A model generated the notes under the pieces. It was not told the DNA's origin and made no database searches. It saw nothing but the letters and a program-made list of their open reading frames with translations. A stretch of 64,000 bases of DNA from NCBI GenBank assembly GCA_007859995.1, contig SMSL01000003.1, positions 186,001 through 250,000 of the forward strand, given 5' to 3'. Origin of the DNA: Candidatus Brocadiaceae bacterium S225. Its GTDB lineage: Bacteria > Planctomycetota > Brocadiia > Brocadiales > Scalinduaceae. Of the stretch, positions 41,280-62,454 are shown one piece after another. A program made the translations under genes and the position numbers. Within the stretch, counting starts at the first letter, position 1. Each line of letters begins with the position of its first letter.

Positions 41280-42230
41280 ATGATTATGTCATCGGCTCTA
41301 CTTGATTTGGCACAGCCTGTATACGGCGCCCTTAAAAGAAGGATGGGGATTTATCCCGGCCATATCGGGAGCCATAAAAAGTTAAACATTAACGGACGCA
41401 TAGACGATGTAATTATGGTAGACCAATCACCAATCGGCAGGACGCCCAGATCAAATCCGATTACCTATGTAAAAGTATTCGATTATATAAGGAAGATATT
41501 TGCTTCAACGAGGGAAGCCAGACTGCATGGTTATACTCAAGGATCTTTTTCTTTTAATGTTAAAGGTGGCCGGTGTGATTATTGTGAGGGCTGTGGTTAT
41601 ATAAAGGTGGACATGCAGTTCCTTGCCGATGTTTACGTAACCTGTGATCAGTGTCACGGCAAGCGTTTCAGGAAGGATGTTCTGGAAGTCTATTATAAAG
41701 ACAAAAATATTCACGATGTTCTGGAAATGACGGTAAGCGAGGCGATGGCATTCTTTTCCACACGCAACAGACATGCGTTGGCAGCCGAAACGAACAACAG
41801 TTTATCTAAGGCAACGTCACACATCCAAAAAGGACTGAAGTATCTTTCAGATACAGGTCTGGGGTACCTGAGATTGGGGCAACCGGCAACGACACTATCA
41901 GGGGGAGAAGCGCAACGTTTGAAACTGGCAACTTATATGGCAAAGGGGAAACGCGAAAAAATACTTTTCATTTTTGACGAACCTACAACGGGCCTGCATT
42001 TTGATGATATAAGAAAGCTGCTTGACTGTTTCCAACGGCTGATCAACAACGGACATTCCGTGATTGTTATTGAACATAATCTTGAAATATTAAAATGCGC
42101 GGACCATATAATCGATCTCGGACCGGAAGGTGGAAAAGGAGGTGGATATGTACTTGGCTGTGGTACGCCGGAAATGATTACTAAATTGAAAAAGTCCTAT
42201 ACAGGAAAATATCTTAAAGAATATTTGTAG
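41280..42230 (+). pseudogene. uvrA: UvrA excinuclease subunit, C-terminal third only
   Basis: The 316 residues match the last third of UvrA: DQSPIGRTPRSNPITYVKVF, the zinc module CDYCEGCGY...CDQCHGKR (~98-127), the ABC signature LSGGEAQRLKLATYMAKG (~208) and Walker B ILFIFDEPTTGLHF. The second Walker A and the whole first ATPase are missing; the break lies just after where GxSGSGKS would be, at the edge of the IS1182-like remnant. It could be translated from the ATG at 41280 but cannot act as UvrA. Another uvrA is expected elsewhere. Confidence 0.85.
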
Positions 42231-42350: not shown

Positions 42351-43829
42351 TTAATGCTTTGTCAGCCTTTCCAACCTGTATGCAGGCGCCCTTTTTTTAA
42401 TCCCGCCCGGATACTGTTCTCTTTCCAGTATAACTGATATGAATGTATTATACCTGAACAGCCGTTGAATATAAATATTAATCATATGAACAGGAAATCC
42501 ATATTTTACGCCTCTTCTGTTTTTCCTTATTCTTGCCAGATCAATATTGCAGGCTATTTTTTTATCATGCTCACTGTAAAACTCAAAAAAGCTTCCCACC
42601 TGAAACAGGATAACATCCCCCGTAAATCTCCACCGGTAATAAAAGTACTGTTGGCAAGTCCTTCTGATACCTGCTGGATATTTGTATTTACGGGTTAATC
42701 TACAGGCTTCGGGGTCAAAATCAAAATATTGGTCTAAGAAAGCGTGCTTTTCCCATATAGACTTGCATAGATTGTAACTGTTTGCCATCTTGAAATGGCC
42801 GAGGTACGATGACAAAATAGCATGTAGCCGGTCCAACATCTCTTCATCAAAAAGATACCTGCGGTAGAACCTTCCTTCCTTGACTAAAAGCGATTTGTGT
42901 TCACGCAACTTTACATGCAGATTATTTACAACACGTCTTCTTACCAACAGATAATCCGTCCGTACAATATAACCCAGGAAGTCAATCCCATTACTGACAG
43001 GCTGGAGTTTAAACGATTTCCGAAGCTCCAGTTGGAGCTTCTCATCAATAAATGTCTCTATTTTATCTTTCCACATCGTGAGTTCCTCCCTGTCTCTTGA
43101 GAGAAACACAGTATCATCACAGTAACGCAGATAATATCGGCACTTCAACTGATGTTTTACAAATTGGTCAAGCAGATTCAAATAGACATTGGCAAAAAAC
43201 TGGCTGTTCAAATTTCCGATTGGAAGCCCCTTGTTTTTTGCTACCTTAAACAGGCTCTTATGAGGAGGGATCTTGTTCAAAATTCCCATATTACCGCGAA
43301 AGTGATAATCAGCAGTGCAGTCATGATAAACGAGGGTGCGCAGTAACCAGAGCGCTTCATCATTCTTTAATTCAGGCGCAATCATAGAGAATAAGATATC
43401 TTTGTCTATGGACATAAAGTAGTTCTTTATGTCGAGCTGTAGAAAGAAGGCTGGATGTGTTCCGTTTTTTGTGACCTTCCTGGTAAATTGCCGGAGTCTC
43501 GTCACTGCTTGATGGACGCCCTTTCCCCTCCGGCAGGCGTATGAGTCATGAATAAATCCTGGCTCTCATATCCGCTCCAGATAATCCACAAGGATGTGGT
43601 GGACTATGCGGTCTCTGAAATCAGCGGCGAATATCTCCCGTAATTTAGGACGTGTTGCAAAAAAACAGACAGAACGTGATGGCTTATACGTGCGGTCCTC
43701 TAACGCCCCTTTAAGTTCCATCAGGTTTTGCTCCTGATTGATCTCGAACTTTAGGGCGTTTATGGTATTTCTCTTGTTTCGGCGGCAATTAATATACTGC
43801 CGGTAGATATTTTCAAAAGAAAATAACAT
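42351..43829 (-). pseudogene. Diversity-generating retroelement reverse transcriptase with in-frame UGA and MutS-like tail
   Basis: This RT would copy the TR RNA with errors at adenines. It reads from the ATG at 43829 through one frame of ~492 codons, broken only by UGA at 43566-43568 (LERI-stop-EPGFIHDSYACRRGKG). RT motifs are TRPKLREIFAADFRDRIVHH, FFLQLDIKNYF (catalytic Asp), GLPIGNLNSQFFANVYLN (the SQ version of motif 4 specific to DGR RTs) and RYCDDTVFLS (catalytic YxDD). The last ~100 residues (GDVILFQVGSFFEFYSEHDK ... YGFPVHMINIYIQRLFRYN) resemble MutS domain I. If UGA is not read through, the product is split before the catalytic domain. The TR lies 13 bases upstream. Confidence 0.9.
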
Positions 43830-43842
43830 GGGTAATCATTTT

Positions 43843-43972
43843 CCGGAACGAACTGCCAGCCCGTAGTTGTTGTTGTTCTTGTTGTTCGTGTTCTGGTTGC
43901 CGTTGTTGAAGTTGAAGTTCCAGGCGTTGTTGGTATTAGCCGAATACTCCGTACCAGACCAGTAAACAGAGG
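43843..43972 (-). repeat. DGR template repeat (TR)
   Basis: On the minus strand this 130-bp segment reads as a pseudo-protein YWSGTEYSANTNNAW then NFNFNNGNQNTNNKNNNNYG and LAVRSG, with about fifteen AAC codons. It is nearly identical to the variable ends of the proteins at 46387 and 60680 except at adenines. It is not part of a gene: stop codons (TAGATAATAG) lie just upstream and it stops 13 bases before the RT start. High AAC content is typical of DGR templates, where each adenine can be changed. Confidence 0.93.
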
Positions 43973-44048
43973 CTGACTATTATCTATCCACTTCACGGAG
44001 CATTTTATTTATGCCCCATCCACCGGACGCAAATCCTAGTTTACAGAA

Positions 44049-44071
44049 TTTCCCCCTTAAAAAAGGGGGAT
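44049..44071. repeat. Short hairpin between avd and the TR
   Basis: TTCCCCCTT and AAGGGGGAT arms flank an A-rich loop. On the minus strand the stem has T-rich sequence in its loop. It could end avd transcription or structure the TR RNA leader. Confidence 0.4.
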
Positions 44072-44201
44072 TAAGGGGATTGTCATCCTGAATAATCATG
44101 CTTGCCAAAAATGTGCAAGCGGGATAGACGCAAAATGATGTTACTCGGCACGCTCACACAAACCGGATATTCCACAGGTATGTGTGATTCCGGCCCCCAT
44201 T

Positions 44202-44552
44202 TCATCCTTTACTCACACTCCTTATCCACCCCTCGTTCTGCCTGCTTATTGAAACCGTCTCCTCGATTGCAAACTGAAAAGACTTGAAACTCTTAAAGGC
44301 TCTGATCTCTTTGCATATGCGTATCAGAATCATCAACTCCTCAAGCTTGTCACGCAGATCAAGTAACCGCGGGAGCTTCTCTTTTTCTGAGTTGGCCTTT
44401 ACTATCAATCCCACAATCTCGCGGCTCTTATCTCTCAGATCTGTCCCCAGGGTGTACTTGTGATACCGGCTGAAACCGGCAACCACCTTCTCAAAATATA
44501 CTGCCGTTTCAAGGGCCTTTTTGTAGATGGGAAGGTGTTCATAGCGGGCCAT
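44202..44552 (-). CDS. avd: DGR accessory protein, Avd-like four-helix bundle
   Basis: The 116-residue basic helical protein begins MARYEHLPIYKKALETAVYF and continues with RYHKYTLGTDLRDKSREIVG, LRDKLEELMILIRICKEIRA and FKSFQFAIEETVSISRQNEG. This is the four-helix bundle family related to 23S rRNA intervening-sequence proteins and to Avd of the Bordetella phage DGR, which binds RT and nucleic acid and is needed for mutagenic retrohoming. Its position directly upstream of the TR and RT on the same strand supports the assignment. It is complete. Confidence 0.85.
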   Translation of the reverse strand: MARYEHLPIYKKALETAVYFEKVVAGFSRYHKYTLGTDLRDKSREIVGLIVKANSEKEKLPRLLDLRDKLEELMILIRICKEIRAFKSFKSFQFAIEETVSISRQNEGWIRSVSKG

Positions 44553-44590
44553 CTTTAAAACAATATACCTTTTTGAAAAAAATCGTGTCA

Positions 44591-44674
44591 GGGTGGCATG
44601 GACAAATTTTATTTGTCCGTGATATCAGCTTGCTGCGTAAATTACACGGACAAACGAGTTTGTCCATGCCACCC
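44591..44674. repeat. Long palindromic repeat upstream of avd
   Basis: GGGTGGCATGGACAAA (44591-44606) and TTTGTCCATGCCACCC (44659-44674) are perfect 16-base inverted arms, with a second nested pairing (TTTGTCCGTG / CACGGACAAA) inside. It resembles a small non-autonomous palindromic element. Confidence 0.6.
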
Positions 44675-44712
44675 ATGTAGTAAACGCCGGTTCAATCCGC
44701 ATACCCGACCGG

Positions 44713-44750
44713 CAGAAAAAAGAAAATGCAGGGGGGAATTCCCCCCTGCA
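44713..44750 (-). terminator. Displaced intrinsic terminator of DGR target 1
   Basis: A perfect 24-base palindrome with arms TGCAGGGGGGAA/TTCCCCCCTGCA (44727-44750) is followed on the minus strand by TTTTCTTTTTTC. The same hairpin plus flanking sequence (GGTTCAATCCGCATAC) lies right after target 2 at 60593-60637. So it belongs to target 1 but is now separated from it by the IS91-like insertion. Confidence 0.75.
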
Positions 44751-44830
44751 ACCCCCCTTCAAGCTAAGTCGCAATAGCGACAGAAATTTCATACTACCAA
44801 AATTCTTTATTTATTCTATACTTCTAACTT

Positions 44831-46036
44831 ATGGAATATGTCAGTGGCATAAAGATAAGAGACATTTTTTTAGATAATGGGAATTGGTGGAAATTCTTCC
44901 TCAAAAACCATCGCCTAATCAGGATTAGTATCATAACCAATGTCTTAAAGCTTCTCGTATGCAGAACTACATTCTTAGGATACCATCTTATCGTATGCCC
45001 CAAATGCTTTTACCAAAAGAAAATACCTCACTCCTGCAAATCAAAATTCTGCTCTTCCTGTGGTAAAAAAGCTACTGACATCTGGATTAAAATACAATTC
45101 AATTCTCTTCCTAAAACCAAATGGCAACACATTACTTTCACTATAGATGAACGCCTCTGGCCATTCTTCTGGTATAATCGATATCTCATGAATAAGATTC
45201 CTGCCATTGCTGCCGACATTATCAAAACTCTTTCCGTAAAGAAAGATTTTCTGCCCGGTATCTTTGTTGCCATTCATACTTTTGGAAGAGACCTGAAACG
45301 AAACCCACATATCCATCTCTCCACTACCGTCGGAGGACTTAGAATCTCTAACAGACATAAATCATGGGTGTTTTCTGCGTTCTTCCACCACGCCGGTCTT
45401 AAGGCAAAATGGAAATACGCTATTATTTCTCTACTACTTAACGAATTCAAGCAAGGCAATCTACAATTACCAAACAACCTAAAACATATCAAATCAATAC
45501 AATCTTTTTATTCATGGCTGCAAATCTCTTATCGTAAAACATGGGTTGTACACCTTCAAAAACCGTCTTCCAACATGAAGCAAAATGTGGAGTATCTTGG
45601 TAAATATCTCAAACGACCCCCTATCGGAGAAACCAGAATCAAAAACTATGATGGCAAATTTGTCACTTATCAATTCCTTGATCATTATACCAATACTACT
45701 CAACACCTGAAACTGCCTGTCCTTGACTTTATTGCAAGATTAATCTCTCATGTCCCGGATAAACATTTCCGCAATATCCGTTACTATGGCTTCCTCGCTA
45801 ATAGAACTTCTTCAAAACTTCTACCTATTGTTTACAAATTGCTTAATATGACTCGTGTTATCTTTGCCAAGATTGCTATCATATGGAAAGATATGATCAA
45901 AAATACTTTCTTTTTTGATCCAACGTCCTGTCCTTGCTGTAAAACTCAAATGCTGTTCTCTCATCGCGTATTTACCAAACATCATATCCTCTCTAAACAT
46001 CAGGAGATTGCTCGTGGATATTTCCCGCTGCTTTAA
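44831..46036 (+). CDS. IS91-family (Y2/HUH-type) transposase
   Basis: The 401-residue protein starts with a zinc-binding domain (CPKCFYQKKIPHSCKSKFCS followed by SCGKK). A relaxase-like core follows with KWQHITFTIDERLWPFFWYN, HTFGRDLKRNPHIH (the HUH-type metal-binding histidines) and NVEYLGKYLKRPPIGETRI. The C-terminal zinc knuckle DPTSCPCCKTQM completes it. These elements move by rolling-circle replication. The gene looks intact and may be active. It points opposite to the DGR genes. Confidence 0.85.
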   Translation: MEYVSGIKIRDIFLDNGNWWKFFLKNHRLIRISIITNVLKLLVCRTTFLGYHLIVCPKCFYQKKIPHSCKSKFCSSCGKKATDIWIKIQFNSLPKTKWQHITFTIDERLWPFFWYNRYLMNKIPAIAADIIKTLSVKKDFLPGIFVAIHTFGRDLKRNPHIHLSTTVGGLRISNRHKSWVFSAFFHHAGLKAKWKYAIISLLLNEFKQGNLQLPNNLKHIKSIQSFYSWLQISYRKTWVVHLQKPSSNMKQNVEYLGKYLKRPPIGETRIKNYDGKFVTYQFLDHYTNTTQHLKLPVLDFIARLISHVPDKHFRNIRYYGFLANRTSSKLLPIVYKLLNMTRVIFAKIAIIWKDMIKNTFFFDPTSCPCCKTQMLFSHRVFTKHHILSKHQEIARGYFPLL

Positions 46037-46325
46037 GAGAAAAGGTAATATTTGTCGCTGTACTCATTGTTCATATGAATATAGTATTTCTCGAAAAGAG
46101 ATTATTGAGACGAAAAACAAGCAACCTTTTCACAAATATGATGAAACCATAGCCCCTTTCCAGGAAGTATGCATGATGTGCTGTAAAGGTCTTATGATTC
46201 CCGTAGAATTTACAAATAGTAATGGAGAAACTGTACTTTTCCATCAAACTAGTCAAAAAGTCTCTATGCCTGACAACGAAACTATCCTTGCACGTATCAT
46301 TTTATTCCAAAATGAGGAAATTTAA
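45915..46325 (+). CDS. Small frame downstream of the IS91-like transposase
   Basis: A 136-codon frame overlaps the transposase end by about 120 bases in another frame. The unique part (RKGNICRCTHCSYEY, VCMMCCKGLM) has paired cysteines and may be a second IS protein or a frameshifted extension of the transposase. The true start is uncertain. Confidence 0.3.
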   Translation: MIQRPVLAVKLKCCSLIAYLPNIISSLNIRRLLVDISRCFKRKGNICRCTHCSYEYSISRKEIIETKNKQPFHKYDETIAPFQEVCMMCCKGLMIPVEFTNSNGETVLFHQTSQKVSMPDNETILARIILFQNEEI

Positions 46326-46386
46326 GCTTTTTAGCAAACATTGAAATTCCTATACATTAAATTACCGAATAACTCAAATTATCAAA

Positions 46387-47058
46387 TTACCGATGCCGCC
46401 TTCTTCTTGCACCATACACACCCATCCCCGCCAGGCCGATCCCGAGTAACACAATAGTCGCGGGTTCAGGCACAGGGGCGGCGGCAACATCGCCGGAACG
46501 AACTGCCAGACCGTAGTAGTTGCCGGTCTTATAGTTCGGGTACTGGGAGCCGTGGCGGAAGCTGAAGTACCAGGCGAGGTCTGTATTTGTATCAGCCAAA
46601 TTCTCCGTACCAGACCAGTAAACATAGGAGTTCAAATGCTGAAAGACTCCGGTCTTTGTCAGGCCACCCGCTTGTGAATTTCCAGAAGTATCATAATCCC
46701 CATCATTCCCCAGCTCTGTGTAAAAGAGATGGCCCATCTCACTCGTCGTGATGTTATAGCCGACCGTTGTGGTACCGTCATAGCCGAACACATACGGGCC
46801 ATCCACCGTTGTCGGTAATCTCCAGTCGTTAAAAATATCACCACCGAAATCAACTGATAATGTATCAGCCCAGGCTACCTGAGATGTCCAATTACCTGCG
46901 GAATGGGTATAATCATACCACGTGATGTCAAGATCATCATCATAGATCAGACGATTGCCCAGTGTGTCCGTTCCTCTGTTTATAAGGGTCGCATGCGCCG
47001 GGGTGGCCAGTACACACACTGCCAGCGCTGCCATTAATAAAAATAATATTCTTTTCAT
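46387..47058 (-). CDS. DGR target protein 1: DUF1566-like variable protein with PEP-CTERM anchor
   Basis: The 223-residue protein has a signal peptide (MKRILFLLMAALAVCVLATPAHA cleaved after AxA; first 20 residues identical to target 2). The DUF1566/C-type-lectin-like body contains LIYDDDLDITWYDY, FNDWRLPTTVDGPYV and GHLFYTELGN. The VR follows (YWSGTENLADTNTDLAWYF to YYGLAVRSG), then PVPEPATIVLLGIGLAGMGV with a basic end, a PEP-CTERM signal. Most VRs end their protein; here an anchor follows. The ligand-binding surface is predicted to be the VR, and the protein surface-sorted. It is intact, though an IS lies 30 bases after its stop. Confidence 0.88.
   Translation of the reverse strand: MKRILFLLMAALAVCVLATPAHATLINRGTDTLGNRLIYDDDLDITWYDYTHSAGNWTSQVAWADTLSVDFGGDIFNDWRLPTTVDGPYVFGYDGTTTVGYNITTSEMGHLFYTELGNDGDYDTSGNSQAGGLTKTGVFQHLNSYVYWSGTENLADTNTDLAWYFSFRHGSQYPNYKTGNYYGLAVRSGDVAAAPVPEPATIVLLGIGLAGMGVYGARRRRHR
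46493..46628 (-). repeat. DGR variable repeat 1 (VR1)
   Basis: VR1 aligns to the TR from the shared 3' end CTGGCAGTTCGTTCCGG. From the conserved GCC TGG codons to that end there are about 16 changes at TR adenines and only two elsewhere (one AAC to TAT third base, one GGG to GGT). Near its 5' end it has two extra codons, apparently a duplicated AATAC(A/C) unit, and a few non-adenine differences. Confidence 0.9.
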
Positions 47059-47597
47059 CTTTGCTTTCCTCCTTCTCCAAATAATAAAGGTTATAAAAAT
47101 ACCAAACCAAATCCCTCGTTCCCACGCTGGAGCGTGGGAACAAGTAGGGGTTTAAAATCTTAAACCCCTACCAAATGTAACTCATAGCTTCAGGTTTGAG
47201 AAATCACACAATAAAACAGAGTCGCCTCAGGCGACAGGTTGCCTGCCCGGCTTCGTCATTCAGGCGGGCAAGTCGTACCAAAGGCAGATCCCTCCAGAGG
47301 CCGGTCTGAGGGCTGCTTCAGGGTCGTCCTCAGGCGACAGGCGACCGCCTAAGGCGTGACCTGGACCGGCACAGAGATCTGTCAGACAGTATCCGGGAAC
47401 ATCTTCCTCTCTTTCGAGAGGAGTCCGGTACTGGAATCCTCTCGAAAGAGAGGACACTTAATTTTACTTGATATCGAGTAATTACAAAAAAAGACCCAAA
47501 AGCATGCAGGATGAAACCCCTGACCACTTCCGGGCCTTGAATAGATAGAGCAGTTTTAACAATAAATAAAACTGATAGAATATTTAATAGATGCGTG
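47059..47597. other. Long leader of target 1 with palindromes at 47118-47141 and 47146-47169
   Basis: GTTCCCACGCT-gg-AGCGTGGGAAC and AGGGGTTTAA-aatc-TTAAACCCCT are adjacent hairpins. Further up (47220-47350) is a GC-rich stretch with repeated CAGGCGAC. The 48-base palindrome at 47406 also lies here. The equivalent interval before target 2 is only ~54 bases, so this region looks like inserted repeat material. No gene is supported. Confidence 0.5.
47406..47453. repeat. 48-base palindrome, copy 1
   Basis: Arms CCTCTCTTTCGAGAGGA... and its complement meet near GGTACT. It is a slightly imperfect copy of the perfect palindrome at 60514-60561. Both copies lie near a DGR target gene. Confidence 0.7.
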
Positions 47598-47693
47598 TTA
47601 TTTGTGAGTGAGTGAGTGAGTGAGTGAGTGAGTGAGCGCAACGGCAGTGCCATAATACTCCCTTTCTTCAAATGACATGCTCTTATTTTCCAT
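47598..47693 (-). CDS. Small upstream ORF with tetranucleotide tract (8 copies), out of frame
   Basis: The ATG at 47693 has AGGAAAG about 8 bases upstream. It encodes MENKSMSFEEREYYGTAVAL then THSLTHSLTHK and stops. The GTGA repeat (47604-47635, eight copies; TCAC on the coding strand) encodes the THSL run. The homologous ORF before target 2 has four copies and reads on for another ~30 residues. With seven copies this frame would also continue, so repeat number decides the reading frame. The function of the peptide is unknown. Confidence 0.5.
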   Translation of the reverse strand: MENKSMSFEEREYYGTAVALTHSLTHSLTHK

Positions 47694-60193: not shown

Positions 60194-60360
60194 GGGAGCA
60201 TTCCCAATTTTTTGTAAATCAGGTATTATACCCATGAATACGTGGATTCGGCCTCCGGCCTTAATCCACCCTACAAATAAGCAAACGTATGGTGCAAGGT
60301 AGGGTGGATTAAACGAAGTGAATCCACCTCTTTAATATACAATAAAATGGGAATGCTCCC
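60194..60360 (-). mobile_element. MITE-like element, copy 5 (with target duplication)
   Basis: The element is in the opposite orientation to copy 1. ATCAAGGA lies directly on both sides, an 8-bp target duplication. The right flank is shared with copy 6. Confidence 0.85.
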
Positions 60361-60510
60361 ATCAAGGATAAACTACTCATTAAACCAGGCAAGGAATAAA
60401 TGACTGATATGCTACTTAGTCTTCAACTTAAATTACACGAGAATCACCGACTCGCAAGCGATAACACGACTCAGAGTCTTTCAGCTTTTTGGATTGTACA
60501 GGAAATGAAT
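60361..60510. repeat. Duplicated segment carrying a relE 3' remnant (partner at 62195-62344)
   Basis: The ~150 bases after MITE copy 5 are almost identical to those after copy 6, up to GTACAGGAAATG. On the minus strand they encode the end of a RelE-type toxin (CYRLRVGDSRVI then stop). MITE plus flank were duplicated together. Confidence 0.8.
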
Positions 60511-60513
60511 TTT

Positions 60514-60561
60514 CCTCTCTTTCGAGAGGAGTCCAGTACTGGACTCCTCTCGAAAGAGAGG
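60514..60561. repeat. 48-base perfect palindrome, copy 2
   Basis: Two perfect 21-base arms meet at AGTACT. It begins CCTCTCTTTCGAGAGGAG, and each arm contains its own small palindrome TTTCGA-type core. The partner copy is at 47406-47453. Confidence 0.8.
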
Positions 60562-60592
60562 GAGGCGCCGGTTCAATCCGCATACCAGACCA

Positions 60593-60679: not shown

Positions 60680-61369
60680 CTATTTCACATGAGACCTGAG
60701 TTGCCGCCTTCTTCTTACACCATAGCCTGCCATCCCCGCAAGACCAATACCGAGTAACGCAATAGTCGCGGGTTCAGGCACGGCGGCGCCAACATCGCCG
60801 GAACGAACTGCCAGCGCGTACATGAAGTTGAAGCGCTTATCGTCCAGGTACTGGACGCCGTGGCCGAAGAAGAAGTCCCAGGCGAGGCTGGTATTAGCCG
60901 CATACTCCGTACCAGACCAGTAAAAAGAGGAAATTAAATGCTGAAAGTCTCCGGTGTTATTTAGGCCCCAATTCCCGTCGCCAGCATATGTACCGGTAAT
61001 GTCGTAGTACCCAAGATTCCCCAGCTCTGTGTAAAACAAATGCCCCAACTCACTGGTCGTGATGTTATAGCCGGCCGTTGTGGTGCCGTCATAGCCAGCC
61101 ACATACGGGCCATCCACCGTTGACGGCAGTCTCCAGTCGTCAAAAATGTCACCGCCGAAATCAACCGATAACCCACCTGCCCAGGATACCTGATTTGCCC
61201 AAGTGTCTGCAGCATTGGTATAATCATACCACGTGATGTCAAGGTCATCATCATAGATCAGACGATTACCCAGTGTGTCCGTTCCCCTGTTTATCAGGGT
61301 CGCACGCGCAGGGGTGGCCAGTACACACACTGCCAGCGCTGCCATTAATAAAAATAATATTCTTTTCAT
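60680..61369 (-). CDS. DGR target protein 2: DUF1566-like variable protein with PEP-CTERM anchor
   Basis: The 229-residue paralogue of target 1 has the same signal peptide and body (LIYDDDLDITWYDYT, FDDWRLPSTVDGPYV, GHLFYTELGN). It differs mainly in two stretches: the loop before the VR and the VR itself (YWSGTEYAANTSLAWDFFFG to FMYALAVRSG). The C-terminus is VPEPATIALLGIGLAGMAGY plus a basic tail, a PEP-CTERM signal. It lies ~16 kb from the RT and would be diversified in trans. The gene is complete. Confidence 0.88.
   Translation of the reverse strand: MKRILFLLMAALAVCVLATPARATLINRGTDTLGNRLIYDDDLDITWYDYTNAADTWANQVSWAGGLSVDFGGDIFDDWRLPSTVDGPYVAGYDGTTTAGYNITTSELGHLFYTELGNLGYYDITGTYAGDGNWGLNNTGDFQHLISSFYWSGTEYAANTSLAWDFFFGHGVQYLDDKRFNFMYALAVRSGDVGAAVPEPATIALLGIGLAGMAGYGVRRRRQLRSHVK
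60798..60930 (-). repeat. DGR variable repeat 2 (VR2)
   Basis: VR2 aligns to the TR with about 21 substitutions at adenines and about four at other bases (for example TCG to GCG and GGG to GCG), plus one inserted codon (ATG) near the 3' end. The 5' and 3' constant parts (TACTGGTCTGGTACGGAG and CTGGCAGTTCGTTCCGG) are identical to the TR. Confidence 0.9.
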
Positions 61370-61422: not shown

Positions 61423-61611
61423 TTAAAAAAGGCCGGAAGGATACAAGAAAAAACCTGTATTCTTCCGGTCTTCATTATAGGGAACTGTTTTAATGACAGT
61501 CAAAACCGATTGATTGTTTAATAGATACGTCTTATTCGTGAGTGAGTGAGTGATCACAATGGCAGCGTCATAATACTCCCTTTCTTCAAATAATATGCCC
61601 TTGTTTCTCAT
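61423..61611 (-). CDS. Small upstream ORF with tetranucleotide tract (4 copies), in frame
   Basis: The ATG at 61611 has GGAAAG about 8 bases upstream. The 62-residue peptide reads MRNKGILFEEREYYDAAIVI then THSLTNKTYLLNNQSVLTVI and ends 53 bases before target 2. The GTGA tract (61538-61553) has four copies. It is the homologue of 47598-47693, which has eight copies and is frame-shifted. It could act as a leader peptide or be a phase-variable small protein. Confidence 0.5.
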   Translation of the reverse strand: MRNKGILFEEREYYDAAIVITHSLTNKTYLLNNQSVLTVIKTVPYNEDRKNTGFFLYPSGLF

Positions 61612-61739: not shown

Positions 61740-62008
61740 AAGCAATAAATATGTATATGAAAATCCCAGAAAGAAATGGAAAACGTATTATAAAGAGAGC
61801 TGTCCATACAATATTAAAACTGAACCTGTGCAGATTAAAATATTGCAGGGAGAGGATAAGGGATTTTAAAGGAACGGTCATAAAGGGGTGGACCGGACAT
61901 TTCCGGTTGGAAGGCAAACCGGAACTCCTGCAGTTTGCCCTTGATACGGGATTGGGTTCGAGGAATAGTGCGGGATTCGGGTTTATTGAAAAGGTAGGGA
62001 AGCGGTAG
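61740..62008 (+). pseudogene. cas6: cas6 3' remnant with frameshift
   Basis: The C-terminal signature of the Cas6 CRISPR RNA endoribonuclease is clear: KGWTGHFRLEGKPELLQFAL then DTGLGSRNSAGFGFIEKV, with the glycine-rich loop typical of the family. Upstream, INIKTEPVQIK-like sequence continues in another frame (YNIKTEPVQIKILQGEDKGF), so a frameshift separates them. The N-terminal half is absent. No CRISPR array is visible in the window. A cas8-like gene begins 1.8 kb downstream. Confidence 0.7.
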
Positions 62009-62026: not shown

Positions 62027-62194
62027 GGGAGCATTCCCAATTTTTTGTAAATCAGGTATGATACCCATGAATACGTGGATTCGGCCTCCGGCCTTAATCC
62101 ACCCTTACAAATAAGCAAACGTATGGTGCGAGGTAGGGTGGATTAAACGAAGTGAATCCACCTCTTTAATATACAATAAAATGGGAATGCTCCC
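62027..62194 (-). mobile_element. MITE-like element, copy 6
   Basis: Same orientation and nearly identical to copy 5. The right flank (ATCAAGGATAA) equals that of copy 5, while the left flank is the end of cas6; there is no target duplication, so this copy arose by duplication or recombination. Confidence 0.85.
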
Positions 62195-62262
62195 ATCAAG
62201 GATAATCTACTCATTTAAACCAGGCAAGGAATAAACGACTGATATGCTACTTAGTCTTCAAC

Positions 62263-62454
62263 TTAAATTACACGAGAATCACAGACTCGCAAGCGATAAC
62301 ACGACTCAGAGTCTTTCAGCTTTTTGGATTGTACAGGAAATGGATTTGTAGCAAGATTTTCAATTGCATGAAGAATTTTTGAAATATATTGTCTGTCGAT
62401 TCTTTTAAGATCGTGCTCCACTGATCCCTTAGGATTAATCTTAAATAAGCCCAT
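62263..62454 (-). pseudogene. RelE-type toxin, C-terminally truncated
   Basis: The 63 residues MGLFKINPKGSVEHDLKRID, then ISKILHAIENLATNPFPVQS, KKLKDSESCYRLRVCDSRVI match RelE/ParE up to the RVI strand. Normal members continue with YxIxDxxxxVxVxxIGHRxxVY; here a stop follows and the next codons (VED..VAYQ) are decayed before the MITE. The catalytic C-terminal residues are lost, so toxicity is unlikely. It overlaps the antitoxin by 14 bases. Confidence 0.7.

Follow-up and report, generated by a model that had tools for sequence, protein, structure and literature searches.

A past-active diversity-generating retroelement with an interrupted reverse transcriptase gene in Candidatus Brocadiaceae bacterium S225

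Diversity-generating retroelements (DGRs) and inactivated DGRs are both already known, and the element we describe here, from a window of 64,000 nt of the Candidatus Brocadiaceae bacterium S225 genome (the whole stretch analysed, G000:C3:186001-250000, from a 2.96 Mb assembly that is 79% complete), is ordinary by kind. It is like the DGR of Bordetella phage BPP-1, whose reverse transcriptase (RT) we take to be the protein of the 8ub7 series of structures (titled DGR RT), in its RT fold, its SQ and YxDD motifs, its Avd partner and its adenine-directed variation, and is unlike it in being chromosomal, in having two Lcl/PEP-CTERM targets, in the MutS domain I (MutS-I) tail carried by the RT and in the interruption of the RT gene. 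DGRs with a MutS-I tail are found at loci L057, L058, L060, L062-L066 and L072, which we place, presumably correctly, in the Thermodesulfobacteriota, Gammaproteobacteria and Nitrospirota (some of the phyla being taken from names). These share with the window element the order of avd, template repeat (TR) and RT, the C-terminal MutS_I homology and adenine-biased variable repeats (VRs), with the order and the bias confirmed in L057, L058 and L060, and their RTs are 41–62% identical to the window RT past the stop position; in contrast, their RT frames are open, and their non-adenine mismatches between TR and VR number 18/869 (best pair, nine loci) compared with 11/178 in the window. The inactivated DGR of Ruminococcus gnavus listed in DiGReF also combines a nonsense codon in the RT gene with recognisable VR/TR pairs, although the truncated cases, in the passages of that report which deal with them, had A-mutations only in the VR, unlike the window VRs with their non-adenine changes and indels (PMC3521204).

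The cassette is a genuine DGR that in the past rewrote parts of two surface-protein genes; its descent and what it did in the past justify the name DGR, which does not imply that it can be shown to work. Our preferred explanation, to which we assign a probability of roughly 0.72, is that a formerly active DGR, whose SQ-motif RT has a MutS-I tail and is accompanied by an Avd, now has its RT gene cut by a nonsense codon. In this genome the element would then most probably have little or no activity, through a loss that is recent relative to the age of the genus or polymorphic among strains. During the active phase RT and Avd would have made an error-prone copy of the TR transcript, miscopying at adenines, and this cDNA would have taken the place of the VRs in two paralogues, both PEP-CTERM proteins from the lectin-like Lcl family, by the steps known for DGRs in general; the nonsense codon that later interrupted the RT gene lies upstream of its catalytic motifs. 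The initial annotation of this DNA had called it a true DGR that diversified two genes in the past, and this agrees with the VR bias, the Avd match, the SQ and YCDD motifs and an RT closest to the solved DGR RT. The words 'in the past' matter here because the interrupted RT gene makes present activity doubtful.

In the order of transcription on the minus strand the cassette consists of target gene 1 with VR1, then avd, TR and RT, with an IS91-family transposase gene on the plus strand intervening before avd. Target gene 1 (46387-47058, minus strand; 223 aa) encodes a protein with a match to the lectin-like family Lcl_C and a PEP-CTERM sorting motif, and contains VR1 (46493-46628, minus strand; 136 nt, the TR plus 6 nt). 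The consecutive arrangement of avd (44202-44552, minus strand; 116 aa; bAvd 43.1 bits, cut-off 40), an AAC-rich repeat of 130 bp which is the TR (43843-43972, minus strand) and an RT with SQ and YxDD motifs had been noted initially, and both the order and the motifs were borne out. Target gene 2 (60680-61369, minus strand; 229 aa) is a paralogue of target gene 1, some 14 kb away from it, with the two proteins 77% identical and PEP-CTERM above cut-off, and contains VR2 (60798-60930, minus strand; 133 nt, the TR plus 3 nt). Near-copies of the repeat had been placed in the genes at 46387 and 60680, and this is where VR1 and VR2 were located. The 3' block CTGGCAGTTCGTTCCGG is common to the TR, VR1 and VR2, and a search of the assembly with the TR at E 0.001 matched only the TR itself and the two VRs. 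Both target genes and avd are open frames.

Substitutions in both VRs are concentrated at TR adenines. When the sequences were compared base by base with gaps placed codon-wise (6 nt for VR1, 3 nt for VR2), VR1 was changed at 17/41 adenines and 6/89 other bases (Fisher p = 4.8e-6) and VR2 at 21/41 adenines and 5/89 other bases (Fisher p = 7.6e-9), and the adenines were replaced by all three other bases (5 G, 6 C and 6 T in VR1; 8 G, 4 C and 9 T in VR2). The share of substitutions at TR adenines is thus 17/23 (74%) for VR1 and 21/26 (81%) for VR2. The initial annotation had given about 16 of about 18 changes for VR1, where the bias is real and the figure was flattering, and about 21 of about 25 for VR2, where the adenine count holds and the total is 26; the tabulation also shows that changes are not spread evenly over the TR bases, as that annotation expected of a DGR. 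Where TR/VR alignments are described in PMC8144416, they overwhelmingly have at least 75% of substitutions at adenines, a level which VR1 falls slightly below and VR2 exceeds. It should be noted that the counts move with gap placement: a multiple alignment gives 18/41 adenines and 6/89 others for VR1, and BLAST gives 16/41 and 7/89 for VR1 (p = 4e-5) and 20/41 and 6/89 for VR2 (p = 1e-7). Codon-position composition was ruled out as the source of the bias by a permutation stratified by codon position, in which the bias stays (p = 1.5e-4 for VR1 and 5e-5 for VR2). Adenine enrichment had been proposed as confirmation of activity; it does show past action, but on its own it does not confirm that the element is active at present.

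The RT frame carries IGNLNSQ and YCDD, corresponding to the DGR-type motifs (I/V/L)GxxxSQ and YxDD, and a profile of 11 homologous RTs ranked 8ub7 first (E 8.5e-58; next 2e-22). A predicted structure of the L058 homologue (mean pLDDT 84.6) returned the DGR RT entries 8ub7, 8ubd, 8ubf, 8ubc and 8ube as ranks 1–5 in Foldseek (best E 1.4e-21). None of the NCBIfam RT models was above cut-off for the window RT, the best being a group II RT model with 65 bits against 300. The window Avd matches the PHROG 'Avd protein of DGR' (E 5.5e-20) and is 75% identical to the Avd of L057, and it scored 45.6 bits with the NCBIfam Avd model, which is under the cut-off of 80. For the targets, Lcl_C was matched by target 1 with E 9e-8 and 32.9 bits and by target 2 with E 3.3e-5 and 24.6 bits, neither reaching the cut-off of 34.9, and the PEP-CTERM match of target 1 was above cut-off (E 1.1e-6); the predicted structure of the target protein (pLDDT 31) is of too low confidence to place the VR on a lectin-like fold. 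Lcl_C was also matched in 3/11 homologue RT frames, which is probably an artefact of stop-to-stop frames extending back across the TR. There was no sign of a phage-borne element: a search of viral contigs with the window RT part found no relative, and the phage records matching the L058 RT were all below 60% identity (146/146), with the ten matches listed covering 58–73% of that RT.

The RT gene is interrupted once, which the initial annotation had missed. Its frame (43829-42351, minus strand) has a single internal stop, a TGA at codon 88 counted from the first GTG (43566-43568, minus strand), which lies upstream of the catalytic motifs, and the PF00078 search also counts one TGA inside the RT. 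The frame originally quoted for the RT, 42351-43505, is only part of the gene, after the internal TGA: the N-terminal 87 codons lie at 43569-43829 (minus strand) and are 73–77% identical to the homologues L057, L058 and L060, and the remainder (42351-43565, minus strand) has 404 codons and then a stop, with the SQ motif at about 43197-43226, the YCDD motif and a first possible internal start at GTG 43505. A comparison with homologous loci (96 relatives found and 80 kept, of which the 45 from L057 to L101 were examined and 35 were not) gave 41 alignable frames of 45, with L076 and three frames shorter than 340 aa excluded, and in these the codon-88 site holds F (13 frames), W (13), Y (12), I (2) or H (1), making it aromatic (F/W/Y) in 38/41. 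The PF00078 search of the 79%-complete assembly found no other DGR-type RT. A replacement RT acting in trans was considered and rejected, since the sole other strong RT (on G000:C17) has QGSAISP, adjoins a Cas1-like frame and is not of the DGR type; a further weak match is a 120-aa frame on C1. The RT on C17 (L175, G000:C17:62471-63058), with the neighbouring frame recognised as Cas1 by eye, is perhaps a CRISPR-associated RT.

Our search for RT copies covered 59 genomes (the S225 genome and 58 relatives, which are draft assemblies in which absence is not proven) and gave matches of some kind in 31/59, the S225 genome included, most of them distant. Close copies (82–88%) were found in three relatives, G005, G014 and G010, and all are broken: the G005 copy has nothing before residue 149 of the post-stop part, with the contig stopping 220 bp upstream, the G014 copy lacks its start and diverges past residue 245, and the G010 copy is missing its N-terminal part and contains stops as well as a change of frame. 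More distant copies are interrupted too, in G044 (C193) by a TAG in the tail and in G043 by frame changes, while copies at 34–41% (G044:C153, G003 and G021) are stop-free within the match. When the post-stop RT was compared pairwise with the G005, G014 and G010 copies, dN/dS came to 0.15–0.31 (two methods). We also counted private changes, that is, changes in one copy where at least two others agree, using a gapped codon mapping. In the window RT, over 131 codons that are all post-stop, 3 of the private changes are nonsynonymous and 18 are synonymous, where neutrality predicts 76% nonsynonymous (p = 6e-9), compared with 7 and 7 for G005 (p = 0.03), 11 and 8 for G014 (p = 0.08) and 24 and 19 plus one stop for G010 (p = 0.006), and the window ratio differs from those of G014 (p = 0.007) and G010 (p = 0.003), with p = 0.053 for G005. 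The three close copies are under weaker constraint than the window RT, and in two cases some constraint is still present. Judging from these substitution patterns, the window RT seems to have been held by selection for longer than the copies in the relatives.

The VRs themselves have drifted at sites other than adenines. In the codon-wise alignment VR1 and VR2 together have 11/178 non-adenine mismatches, or 13/178 by the pipeline used for the reference loci; the reference consisted of the 34 of 44 loci (L057-L100) that had a TR/VR pair and whose RT frame satisfied a rough test of motifs and length (L059, L061, L068, L069, L073, L076, L079, L080, L084 and L088 were left out, and L074, whose RT has a TAG in the tail as in G044, was retained). 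The reference loci have 47/3010 such mismatches in their best pairs (Fisher p = 3e-4 against 11/178) and 110/5286 in all 60 pairs (p = 0.002), and only 2/34 best pairs and 5/60 pairs are as divergent at non-adenine sites as those in the window. This non-adenine drift suggests that there has been little recent rewriting, with neither VR rewritten recently. The argument of the DiGReF authors is that random non-adenine changes are expected to accumulate in a dead DGR, yet in the part of their report which presents these cases the truncated RTs went with A-mutations only, and some DGRs with a full-length RT have non-adenine changes (PMC3521204).

We had at one stage regarded the element as long dead, as the VR drift suggested, but this was dropped because it conflicts with the constraint seen downstream of the stop, and replaced by a loss that is recent or uncertain. 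Such strong constraint leaves as readings a recent mutation, a variant of the strain, an error of assembly or readthrough, and for the preferred reading it is the reason to regard the loss as recent relative to the age of the genus or as polymorphic among strains. Several observations weigh against that reading. The stop is known from one assembly only, and a working gene with a consensus error would likewise have a single stop among its 492 codons and strong constraint beyond it; the G005 and G010 copies are under the neutral nonsynonymous share as well, and the difference between the window and G005 is just p = 0.053. The reference pairs were BLAST-trimmed and filtered for adenine bias, which favours low mismatch, and five of the 60 drift as much even so, while TR–VR indels of 3–6 nt also occur in the open-RT loci L065, L066, L072 and L081 and are no proof of decay. 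It is possible, though considerably less probable than loss, that the stop is an assembly error or a minority-strain variant and that most of the population's cells have an intact, active DGR, a situation that would accord with the purifying selection downstream, with an interruption at a single point and with the open avd and target genes; set against this are VRs whose non-adenine mismatches and two indels exceed 55/60 pairs of related loci, and the fact that each of the three close relatives found has a broken copy.

In E. coli, tRNA-Trp is known to misread UGA as a near-cognate codon, and of the three stops UGA is the one most frequently read as Trp. A real but leaky stop, giving traces of full-length RT and a slow DGR in which the stop is a tolerated brake on an element still under selection, would fit the downstream constraint, the VRs that are apparently seldom rewritten and the use of Trp at the codon-88 site in 13/41 homologues. 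We nevertheless regard it as improbable, as a very recent mutation explains everything equally well and the 33 tRNAs found in the 79%-complete assembly include none with a UCA anticodon, a tRNA-Trp with the normal CCA and tRNA-Sec only under the cut-off, results on which recoding of the stop was also rejected. Less probable still, and barely worth entertaining, is a shortened or split RT in which the C-terminal piece works from the internal GTG at 43505: the start is present, but the missing part holds columns invariant in 11/11 aligned homologues (e.g., in RPKxREIFAADFRDR), and the frames of L057, L058, L060 and L062 are unsplit at that point.

Traces of the element are also found in relatives. 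VR-like stretches in relatives can be aligned with the window TR and show the same bias, with changes at 18/41 adenines and 6/89 other bases in G002 (p = 1e-6), 21/41 and 8/89 in G003 (p = 3e-7) and 17/41 and 10/89 in G014 (p = 2e-4); the weaker TR matches L034, L040/L055, L045 and L047 were omitted from this test of target homologues, although the G043 stretch of L045 was aligned. G002 has such a stretch and no RT match, and G003 has a distant RT match only (both being draft assemblies); VRs alignable to the window TR thus persist in members of the genus that have no close RT. The element is being lost in this lineage, and the close copies in the three relatives are broken relics. In the literature collection searched, no paper linked DGRs with 'Scalindua' or with 'PEP-CTERM', and none was on the subject by title for 'anammox'; with our analysis, a group related to the anammox bacteria has a DGR on record, along with the target family and the decay of the element. 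It provides a worked example of DGR loss, with a constrained RT in the window and broken close copies in three relatives, and a single case combining an RT nonsense codon with non-adenine VR drift.

The C-terminus of the RT is fused to a MutS domain I (42429-42656, minus strand; PF01624 E 1.5e-7, above cut-off), which also matches the T. aquaticus-type MutS chain 1ewq (phmmer E 2.5e-4), and PF01624 was found in 10/11 selected RT homologues. The tail includes an F-x-E triplet, the mismatch-reading motif of MutS, and this was present in 11/16 homologue tails with a readable motif pattern (42 frames scanned). A MutS-like (MSL) protein with PF01624 is named among known DGR accessories in PMC10053308, which cites Wu et al. 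2018 for it, and no paper on DGRs and the MutS domain turned up in the literature collection searched. In a 2026 study of a reconstituted DGR, the assays described include one in which mutS was deleted to help keep DGR substitutions and an insertion reporter on which mutS was without effect (PMC12875486). As a guess, the tail might bind mismatches between cDNA and target and shield them from repair.

The surroundings of the cassette include further features. The IS91-family transposase gene between target gene 1 and avd (44831-46036, plus strand; Y2_Tnp E 3.6e-45, IS91 E 1.3e-86, above cut-off) is the sole full-length match in the assembly, which otherwise has one 60-aa fragment and one weak match. 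Beside the RT gene, at 41280-42230, lies a UvrA fragment (profile positions 670-923 of 924), with a full-length uvrA on C27. The homologous upstream regions of both targets have CACT/GTGA tetranucleotide arrays of unequal lengths (about 47604-47636 and 61538-61553), and a 62-nt palindrome-like sequence is found near both in inverted orientation (47403-47464 and 60503-60564; 90% complementary). Target gene 2 is flanked by two copies (98%) of a 320-bp repeat (60194-60515 and 62027-62347), the first ~167 bp of which are dispersed in the assembly with 43 matches (40 of 72 candidates scored). A short frame between the two repeat copies (61751-62008) has an end that seems to resemble the glycine-rich loop of Cas6.

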